64,000 bases of DNA, from the NCBI RefSeq assembly GCF_002753895.1, contig NZ_NJER01000004.1:62001-126000 (forward strand), read 5' to 3'. Below the pieces are notes generated by a model that did no database searches, was not told the origin of the DNA, and saw only the letters and a program-made list of their open reading frames with translations. Of this stretch, positions 46,966-54,587 are shown piece by piece. The DNA is from Halobacteriovorax sp. JY17. Its GTDB lineage: Bacteria > Bdellovibrionota > Bacteriovoracia > Bacteriovoracales > Bacteriovoracaceae. The position numbers and the translations under genes are program-made. The number at the start of each line of letters is the position of its first letter. Within the stretch, counting starts at the first letter, position 1.

Positions 46966-47418
46966 ATGGTTAAATGGATTCTCACTATCTTTCTTCTTAT
47001 GATCTCTATGAGTTCTCTTCACGCAAGCTGTGAAGAACTTAAGAGTGATTGCGAATACTACTCTTGTGTTGAGGAGCAGAGGCACTGTGGGGATAAAGGC
47101 TACTTAATTGGCTTTGGTAAGAAGTATTGTATGAAGTTTTCTTCTGATGAGGATTATTTCTCAGATGAAGGTAAGGAATGGATTCAAAAAGTTAGGGAAT
47201 GTCTGATTAAGAACTTAGACCTTCCAAGTATAGATATGAGCTGCAAGAAGTTTAAAAGAGCGCAAATTAAATCTCATGTTCCTTGCTATATGGAGTCTGG
47301 TTATTGTGAGCTAAGTCGAAGTGATCGATATGCAGTAAAAAAAGTTATCTTTAAATCAATGTGGAGACCTTCTCTCGTCTGGGCCGGAATAAAGGTTATT
47401 GCTAGCTGTCGCTTTTAA
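46966..47418 (+). CDS. Secreted cysteine-rich protein of unknown function
   Basis: A 150-residue protein with signal peptide (about residues 1-20, ending LHA) and about eleven cysteines in the mature chain (C22, C28, C33, C41, C55, C78 and more), implying disulfides. I see no known fold. No obvious ribosome site precedes the ATG at 46966, so the start is less sure. It ends one base before the converging DCC-family gene. Confidence 0.7.
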   Translation: MVKWILTIFLLMISMSSLHASCEELKSDCEYYSCVEEQRHCGDKGYLIGFGKKYCMKFSSDEDYFSDEGKEWIQKVRECLIKNLDLPSIDMSCKKFKRAQIKSHVPCYMESGYCELSRSDRYAVKKVIFKSMWRPSLVWAGIKVIASCRF

Positions 47419-49630: not shown

Positions 49631-50548
49631 ATGGCAAAGAAAGTTAAGAGAAGTTATAGTGAAGATGTCACGCTAACTGAATATCGTGATCACACAAAAG
49701 CATTTAATTGGTTCCCTGGGCATATGGCGAAGGCCATGAAGCAAGTAGGGGATAAATTAAAAATGGTTGATATCATTCTTGAGCTTCGTGATGCAAGAAT
49801 TCCTCTTCTTTCTGGTAATGAAGATTTAAAGAAGCTTGTTGGTAATAAGTGTCGCCTGGTTGTTTTAAATAAGGTGAATCTCTCCGATCCTGAAAAGCTT
49901 GCGGGCTGGAAGAAGTGGTTTGAAGAAAATGAAAAGAATCACATCTTTGTTAATGCCCTTGATCGCAACGCTGTAAAACTCATCACTGATAAGGCCCGAG
50001 AAATTGTCATTGCAAATAGAATAGCTTCAGGTGGTTCAGGAGATAAGGTTCGAAAGTTTAGAATGATGATGGTTGGACTTCCTAACACAGGAAAGTCTAC
50101 TCTTATAAATTCTCTTCGTGGACGCAAGTCTGCAAAGTGTGGGGATAAGCCAGGACTTACTCAACAACAACAGTGGATAAAAGTCGATAGTGATATGGAA
50201 CTCTTGGATACTCCGGGAATCATGCCAAGAAGAATTGATACGAGACAAGAGGGGATGTGGCTCTGTGCAACCCACGCAATTAGAGATTCAATTCTTGGGC
50301 AGGAAGAAGTGGCATGCTTTGTTATTGAATATCTCCTAAAATACTTTCCTGAAAAAATATCTGAGCGCTATTCTTTAGAAGATATGGCGAGTACGGTAGG
50401 GGAAGTTCTTGAGCAAATTTCTTTTAGCCGAGGCTATATTAAGAAGAAAGGTGTCGCCGACTTCGATAGAACATTTGCAACAGTACTGTCAGACTTTAGG
50501 AAGGGTGAATTAGGTTTAGTTACCTTTGAAAATAGTCCTATGATATAA
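49631..50548 (+). CDS. rbgA: Ribosome biogenesis GTPase YlqF/RbgA
   Basis: A 305-residue circularly permuted GTPase: the G4 motif NKVNL comes first, then G1 GLPNTGKST near residue 147, then G3 DTPGIM, with the N-terminal NWFPGHMAKAMKQV signature of YlqF. The C-terminal helical domain contacts the ribosome. It helps late assembly of the 50S subunit in Bacillus. Confidence 0.93.
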   Translation: MAKKVKRSYSEDVTLTEYRDHTKAFNWFPGHMAKAMKQVGDKLKMVDIILELRDARIPLLSGNEDLKKLVGNKCRLVVLNKVNLSDPEKLAGWKKWFEENEKNHIFVNALDRNAVKLITDKAREIVIANRIASGGSGDKVRKFRMMMVGLPNTGKSTLINSLRGRKSAKCGDKPGLTQQQQWIKVDSDMELLDTPGIMPRRIDTRQEGMWLCATHAIRDSILGQEEVACFVIEYLLKYFPEKISERYSLEDMASTVGEVLEQISFSRGYIKKKGVADFDRTFATVLSDFRKGELGLVTFENSPMI

Positions 50549-50571
50549 TTTTTCCATTAAACGGAGAAATT

Positions 50572-51036
50572 ATGGATCAAAATTATTGGCGAAAATGTAT
50601 CGTTTGCAAGAAAGAAATCAATTTTTCAACTAAGTATTATAAGTGCTCTGTCACATCTTGTGACAAGAAGAGAGCTCCAGCTCAATTTTGCTCAGTCGAC
50701 TGTTGGGGAGTACATAGCTCAACTCTAAATCATAAGAGCGCATGGGCGGAAGAGTTTCATTCTCCTTCTAAATCAGAGTGGCAGAGCGCACCGAAGGTTC
50801 GAATTGTTACTGGAAAGAGTAGCTCTTCTGATTCAAACTCATCAAATGAGAATTTACCAAATGATATTCTTGTCGTTGTCTCTAAGATGAAGGCCTACGT
50901 TAAAGCTAAAGGTGATTTAAATACATCTGCAGACGTAAGTGATGCTCTTTCAGATATAATTAGACATGAATGCGATAAGGCCATTGAAAGGGCTAGAGCA
51001 GATGGAAGAAAAACTCTCATGGGTAAAGACTTTTAA
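50572..51036 (+). CDS. Zinc-finger protein with C-terminal histone fold
   Basis: A 154-residue two-domain protein. Residues 9-54 hold a treble-clef-like zinc finger: C9-x2-C12, C25-x4-C30, C40-x3-C44, then H48 and H54, reminiscent of HIT/MYND fingers. After a serine-rich linker (83-92) residues 98-154 fit a histone fold: helix 1 ILVVVSKMKAYVKAKG, loop LNTSADV, long helix 2 SDALSDIIRHECDKAIERARADG and the RKTLMGKDF motif that matches the histone L2 strand and start of helix 3; the chain ends there, so helix 3 is nearly absent. Such fusions would bind DNA. ACGGAG precedes the ATG; it follows rbgA by 23 bases. Confidence 0.8.
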   Translation: MDQNYWRKCIVCKKEINFSTKYYKCSVTSCDKKRAPAQFCSVDCWGVHSSTLNHKSAWAEEFHSPSKSEWQSAPKVRIVTGKSSSSDSNSSNENLPNDILVVVSKMKAYVKAKGDLNTSADVSDALSDIIRHECDKAIERARADGRKTLMGKDF

Positions 51037-51614
51037 GAGTTTACACTCTTCATCTGCTTATAGATTTGTAAACCAACCCAGGCGTCACAAGCTGCATATT
51101 GAACTTGAGCATCTGTGAGAGTTGGTTGTTCCCAATTTGTGATTTTTGCTCTTTTAGAGAGGCGATAATTAATGAAAATGGCGCAAAGAGCTCTTAAGCT
51201 AAAATTCTTAACACCTAATTCTTTCGCAAAGTCCTGTAATTCGCAGAAATTTTCGTCTTTAAAAGGTGAAAGCTTTTGTAGCGACTTTATATCGTCCCTA
51301 ACTGCAACTCCTGCTTTTACAATTTTAGGATCAGCAAGTAGTTGGGCCAATTCTTTTGGAAAAGTCATTTTATTTAAACGAAAGAGATAGGCATCACTCT
51401 CTGTAGATAGCTGTAAGAGAGAAACGTCGTATGTTTCACCTTTTTTAAAGCTTGGCCTAGTCTCAGTATCAAAGCCTAAAATTTCTTCATTAGAAAGCTT
51501 TTTAGCGATCTTAATTGCTTCATCGGCATTGGTTACTAAGTGAATCTTTCCTTGAAACTTAAGCATTTCAAGTGCGTTGATTTCGTCTTTCTCTATACTA
51601 GTTTTAAATTTCAT
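51033..51614 (-). CDS. 3'-5' exonuclease (RNase D-like DEDDy fold)
   Basis: A 193-residue nuclease domain without HRDC extension. Catalytic motifs: DTETRP (exo I), KAGVAVRDDIKSLQ (exo II), and YAACDAWVGLQIYK (exo III, tyrosine type). It resembles WRN-exonuclease-like stand-alone proteins. Its end overlaps the zinc-finger histone gene by four bases. Confidence 0.9.
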   Translation of the reverse strand: MKFKTSIEKDEINALEMLKFQGKIHLVTNADEAIKIAKKLSNEEILGFDTETRPSFKKGETYDVSLLQLSTESDAYLFRLNKMTFPKELAQLLADPKIVKAGVAVRDDIKSLQKLSPFKDENFCELQDFAKELGVKNFSLRALCAIFINYRLSKRAKITNWEQPTLTDAQVQYAACDAWVGLQIYKQMKSVNS

Positions 51615-54077: not shown

Positions 54078-54587
54078 ATGAAAAAGAAATTATATCTCAT
54101 TCCTCGCTTCTCTAGAATTATACCTACGAAAGAGACTAGGGAATTAGCCAATAAAGCAACTCTTGGTCGTGGCGTTGAGAGTTTTGAAAATTATGCAGAC
54201 TGGTTCTTCTACGGTCACCTTGATCCTATTCAACGTTATATTCATCTCTTTGGAATGCTATCGGGAACGATTCTCTATCTCTATTCAATTACGACTTTAA
54301 TGAATCAAGATTGGATATTGCTCATTACACAAATAGTGATCGCAACATTTCTATTCTATGGAACGGGAGTTCTCTCTCACTTCATCTATGATAAAGGTGC
54401 CTCAAAATCAGATCCAAATTATTGGAACGTAACATTTAAAGCTGTTATCTATATAAATCTCTTAACTCTCGTTGGAAAGTACGATGAGGTCTTGAGAGGA
54501 TATGTAGAAAAGTATCCTTTTACGAAAATCGATTATGATCTTATAGAAGTTGATAAGAAGGGAATTTGGAAAACGATACTTAAGTAA
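54078..54587 (+). CDS. Membrane protein of unknown function, possibly Mpo1-like
   Basis: A 169-residue protein with two clear helices (about 57-76 and 80-105) and perhaps a third at 120-135. The pattern WFFYGHLDPIQRYIHLFGMLSGT and LSHFIYDKGASKSDPNYW, with histidines spaced around the helices, recalls the Mpo1/YGL010w (DUF962) family of fatty-acid alpha-oxidation dioxygenases, but similarity is slight. The converging HD-GYP gene ends next to its stop. Confidence 0.6.
   Translation: MKKKLYLIPRFSRIIPTKETRELANKATLGRGVESFENYADWFFYGHLDPIQRYIHLFGMLSGTILYLYSITTLMNQDWILLITQIVIATFLFYGTGVLSHFIYDKGASKSDPNYWNVTFKAVIYINLLTLVGKYDEVLRGYVEKYPFTKIDYDLIEVDKKGIWKTILK

Follow-up and report, generated by a model that had tools for sequence, protein, structure and literature searches.

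What might a bacterium do with a protein that joins a zinc finger to a histone fold? The question is raised by a small gene in a stretch of 64,000 nucleotides (hereafter the window, meaning the whole of the DNA analysed), which belongs to a genome of 3.47 Mb in five contigs. The gene (50572..51036, forward strand) is an intact open reading frame encoding 154 amino acids between an ATG start and a TAA stop; a GGAG read in the sequence 5 nt before the ATG (50563..50566, forward strand) is its likely ribosome-binding site. An earlier note, made from the sequence letters, had described the product as a Cys/His zinc finger fused to a C-terminal histone fold with a long helix 2, a GRKT loop and a trailing aspartate, and this description is borne out by sequence comparison, structure prediction and conservation alike. 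The closest named relatives are proteins of the Bacteriovoracaceae, including Halobacteriovorax marinus. A viral, phage or plasmid origin was considered and rejected, no relative being found among the viral contigs, phages and plasmids searched. Since whole-gene dN among four members of the genus is 0.13–0.17 with dS above 1, the gene is under purifying selection.

The histone fold spans residues 98–154 (50863..51033, forward strand) and was recognized by phmmer, AlphaFold2 and Foldseek. Its best match among solved structures is the Bdellovibrio bacteriovorus histone HBb/Bd0055 (8cmp, 8fvx), with a phmmer E value of 1.5e-12 over residues 98–153 and 52% identity in the fold; Leptospira HLp and the archaeal histone HTkC follow. 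HBb structures also took the top rank in Foldseek (E 6.5e-4, TM on target 0.71–0.76), while Pfam and NCBIfam yielded sub-threshold matches only (CBFD_NFYB_HMF and archaeal histone). In the AlphaFold2 model, built from a 33-row alignment and showing an ordered finger followed by a disordered linker, helix 1 covers residues 103–114, helix 2 residues 123–143 and helix 3 residues 151–153. The near absence of helix 3, pointed out in the earlier note, thus stands at about three residues but is no peculiarity, because a helix 3 truncated to 3–4 residues is what defines the α3 class. The histone fold foreseen for the predicted structure was likewise found, although the pattern to be expected is helix–loop–helix–loop–helix and not the helix–strand–helix–strand order that had been named. 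The GRKT loop is G145 R146 K147 T148 and the trailing D153 is invariant; together with the helix-1 lysines K105, K107 and K111, the domain carries the RKTxxxD signature (R146 K147 T148, D153) of a ZZ histone.

Hu et al. (PMC11317129) name the ten residues of HBb that contact DNA most. With a numbering offset of 95 from HBb to the present protein, eight of them are identical (S104, K105, K107, K111, N117, S119, K147 and T148). HBb R57 corresponds to K152, an Arg in most relatives, and HBb T8 to V103, a position where each of the 33 aligned relatives has Val, Ala or Ser. The RD clamp between R146 and D153 is retained, as is D144. Because the contact residues are conserved, HBb-like non-specific DNA binding is a well supported prediction from homology. 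Of the DNA- or RNA-binding chromatin-like factor suggested earlier, the DNA-binding form is the most likely functional class.

The protein is almost certainly a ZZ histone of the α3 family. ZZ histones are already a described class (Schwab et al. 2024, PMC11390915), of which the protein studied here is one further member. They form one of five categories of α3 histones in that paper, and the ZZ histone of B. bacteriovorus is reported to be expressed at a low level. Probably the latter is Bd3044, a longer second histone of that species, found in 37% of Bdellovibrionota genomes (Hocher et al., PMC10627809). Deletion of Bd3044 is lethal according to a review (PMC11318664), whereas the accessible text of Hocher et al. 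reports failed deletions for bd0055 only (PMC10627809), and no weight is therefore placed on the lethality. The literature on the class, so far as its text was available, contains no demonstrated function for ZZ histones. They matter as bacterial histones equipped with a finger that resembles the chromatin-reader modules of eukaryotes.

The finger covers residues 6–65 (50587..50766, forward strand). Its eight ligands, C9, C12, C25, C30, C40, C44, H48 and H54, all present where they had first been read, do not vary among 33 full-length homologues, nor among 25 finger sequences, 8 of which come from proteins without a histone fold. Following the pairing given in PMC11390915, they divide into a C4 set (C9 C12 C40 C44) and a C2H2 set (C25 C30 H48 H54). 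Modelled in isolation, the finger reached an AlphaFold2 pLDDT of 88. Within the genus its dN is the lowest of the three parts of the protein (0.03–0.07, against 0.11–0.21 for the histone fold and 0.34–0.58 for the linker), which points to a separate, constrained role for the finger. The solved folds ranking highest against it are ZZ domains (p62, BIG, Ada2 in SAGA, HERC2 and p300), with weak scores: the best Foldseek E value is 0.43 and the best VIA Z is 4.7 at 4.0 Å over 64 residues, and the Bcd1 finger, LIM domains and other treble clefs lie within about one Z unit. None of the 25 finger sequences matched the Pfam ZZ profile at E values up to 1; scattered weak matches to C1_2, FLZ, MYND and FCS fingers pointed to no consistent family, and a PDB sequence search with a finger profile returned nothing useful. 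The missing profile match makes membership in the Pfam ZZ family less likely but does not speak against a ZZ-like fold. 'ZZ-like' is used here as the published label for a finger whose modelled fold scores weakly against ZZ domains.

Finger and histone fold prove to be separable. The finger is present in 138 of 291 Bdellovibrionota genomes, nearly always once, and in 27 of these 138, judged from the loci read, it belongs to a protein without a histone fold (loci L046–L053, L070–L072, L074, L081–L091, L123–L125, L127 and L130). Such proteins take two forms. Those of family f3 are mostly 73–83 residues long, hardly more than the finger itself, and four genomes of this family (G061, G069, G076 and G095, 91–98% complete) gave no histone match at E 1e-5. 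Those of f8, with single members of f15, f17 and f25, continue after the finger into a tail of about 40–60 residues, and all 13 f8 genomes with a tailed finger-only protein have exactly one histone match, encoded by another gene. The converse arrangement, a linker with an RRILV-type motif and a histone fold but no finger, occurs in the window's own family (L063, 3818–4072; L064, 3656–4105; L065, 3907–4230). We considered whether finger-only and histone-only genes might be the two halves of a split fusion and dropped the idea, as several f8 genomes hold a fused protein plus a separate histone. Since the separate histone is kept beside the fusion, it is the histone fold of the finger protein that looks gained or lost, the standalone histone staying in place. 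On the finger tree the histone/no-histone label changes at least 7 times, against 23 in shuffles, in a tree with few firm branches that would also accommodate a single change and in which gain is indistinguishable from loss. One further architecture, a finger and linker running in frame into an RsmC-like methyltransferase (L044, 2274–3380), was set aside, since it probably results from a frame or assembly error in a metagenome-assembled genome. Tandem double histone folds, in chains of 137–140 amino acids, were also seen in the window's bacterial family (L056, 3086–3496, reverse strand; L057, 2467–2886, forward strand; L058, 3816–4226, reverse strand).

Between finger and histone fold lies a flexible linker (residues 66–95; 50767..50856, forward strand), with pLDDT under 50 at residues 77–79 and 81–92. 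It contains a short basic-hydrophobic motif, KVRIV here and typically PRRIIV in relatives, and of 57 distinct linkers from fused proteins, 31 hold a motif of this type (shuffle mean 0.44, maximum 4). The tails of finger-only proteins end in a comparable way: every one of the 16 long tails from genuine members carries a C-terminal hydrophobic-Arg-Arg/Lys motif (typically PKVILRR; PxVILRR), or 16 of 17 if the doubtful L044 is counted, whereas 2,000 shuffles averaged 0.74 and never exceeded 4. Both counts overstate the significance, because the patterns were written after the sequences had been viewed and related sequences are not independent; the conservation of the motifs is itself plain to see. 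As far as the literature on ZZ histones was covered, neither these motifs nor the finger-only proteins are mentioned, and they may be taken as additional observations on the class.

The identity of the domains, the conservation of zinc ligands and DNA contacts, the purifying selection and the separability of finger and histone are established at the level of sequence or prediction. Beyond them, the explanation we consider best overall, and somewhat better than even, is that the ZZ histone forms a DNA-bending dimer with tethered, partner-docking fingers. The C-terminal folds would pair into a homodimer as in HBb, binding the DNA backbone irrespective of sequence and presumably bending it; the two N-terminal fingers, each expected to hold two zinc ions, would hang on their disordered linkers and dock a protein or peptide partner. 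The protein would in this way be a low-abundance adaptor bringing a partner to DNA rather than the main packer of chromatin. Because the genome also encodes three HU/IHF-family proteins and an FtF-like histone, packing need not fall chiefly to the ZZ histone. ZZ domains such as those of p62, Ada2/SAGA, HERC2 and p300 are peptide-docking modules. Docking is proposed because the finger is constrained, exists without histones and resembles these peptide-binding folds, and because the linker is flexible and carries a short motif. The weak ZZ similarity (E 0.43, Z 4.7), the replaced Thr8 contact and the net charge of the finger, about +4, count against this explanation; to the adaptor mechanism as such we give an even chance. 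More tentatively, and with odds somewhat against it, the finger may represent an independent Bdellovibrionota adaptor family with a conserved partner and a docking motif, PxVILRR in tails and PRRIIV in linkers. ZZ histones would then be the variant that a histone fold anchors to DNA, with repeated gain or loss of that fold.

The positive charge of the finger is one argument for the main rival, in which it, like the histone fold, would bind nucleic acid. With the finger as a second DNA or RNA module, the protein would be bivalent and would bridge or lock DNA in the nucleoid. A basic loop is present in the finger of many members (KKRAPAQ here, NRxR in most other families), the linker motif is basic, and ribosomal-protein and LIM/HIT-type treble clefs reach Z scores similar to those of ZZ domains. 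However, the four-residue basic insert in the finger of genus members is missing from most of their own family while the ligands are invariant throughout, and ZZ domains still rank best among folds. We regard a nucleic-acid-binding finger as unlikely.

Less probable again is a modulator of other histones, acting through mixed dimers with an FtF or HBb-type histone or through a finger that reads histone tails. The genome does encode a second histone, an FtF-like protein in an 80-residue open reading frame (L059, 3496–3735, G000:C1:27555) with a Lys/Ala-rich N-terminal tail, and in eukaryotes the tails of H3 are ligands of ZZ domains (PMC11390915). Against such a role, finger-only proteins occur in genomes without a detectable histone, and Schwab et al. 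deem tail binding unlikely and report a second histone in only half of the ZZ-histone proteomes (PMC11390915).

A ribosome- or RNA-related factor acting with the two neighbouring gene products is very improbable: a same-strand ylqF at 23 nt and a convergent exonuclease, in an arrangement shared by the sampled genus members with the gene, would suit it, but the neighbours are different at every sampled locus beyond the genus. The neighbours themselves had been correctly named in the earlier note, as the ribosome biogenesis GTPase YlqF (49631..50548, forward strand; TIGR03596, E 4.1e-90) and an RNase D-like 3′–5′ exonuclease (51033..51614, reverse strand; PF01612, E 1.8e-24) whose 3′ end overlaps that of the ZZ-histone gene by 4 nt; a functional hint from them is unsupported. 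The genus order is an RsmC-like methyltransferase, YlqF, the ZZ histone, the RNase D-like exonuclease and a pyroglutamyl-peptidase-like gene, the last so called from the look of its sequence, with no search behind the name; a genome search of one genus member, G003, found no ZZ-histone match. The short gap after the ylqF stop makes co-transcription of the two genes plausible in the genus. Because the order is confined to the genus, gene neighbourhood was rejected as a clue to function and no functional tie to YlqF or the exonuclease is claimed. A nucleotidyltransferase-like gene recurs downstream at 8 loci, a weak pattern only. Two small open reading frames were noticed nearby in the window, one Cys-rich with a signal-peptide-like start (46966–47418) and another at 54078–54587.

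The preferred reading remains a DNA-bending ZZ-histone dimer with tethered, partner-docking fingers. As the finger is better conserved than the histone fold and persists histone-free in many genomes, the question shifts from how DNA is packaged to what the finger binds.

Among known systems, the eukaryotic ZZ domains (p62, HERC2, p300, Ada2) rank first, with weak scores, in fold comparison with the finger. Like them it has eight Cys/His ligands, predicted to hold two zinc ions, but it lacks a Pfam ZZ match; the residues of the ZZ peptide pocket are reported not to be conserved in the bacterial domain (PMC11390915). The histone part resembles the HBb/Bd0055 dimer (8cmp, 8fvx, 9ezz, 9f0e) in sequence, in eight of ten DNA contacts, in the RD clamp and in a one-turn helix 3. 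HBb, in contrast, has neither finger nor linker and contacts DNA through Thr8, a Val here; HBb-class histones consist of a single fold with no extra domain, and in the present protein finger and linker precede the fold. No feature sets the protein apart from ZZ histones. Its genus carries a basic insert in the finger that most of the family lacks, and the second Cys pair is C-x3-C (C40, C44), where PMC11390915 prints profile positions 41 and 43. The taxon range given there for ZZ histones fits the protein, and so does their architecture, as in Haliangium D0LYE7 and probably Bd3044: a finger with one site of four Cys and one of C2H2 type, a linker and a C-terminal α3 fold with RKTxxxD (Schwab et al. 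2024, PMC11390915).
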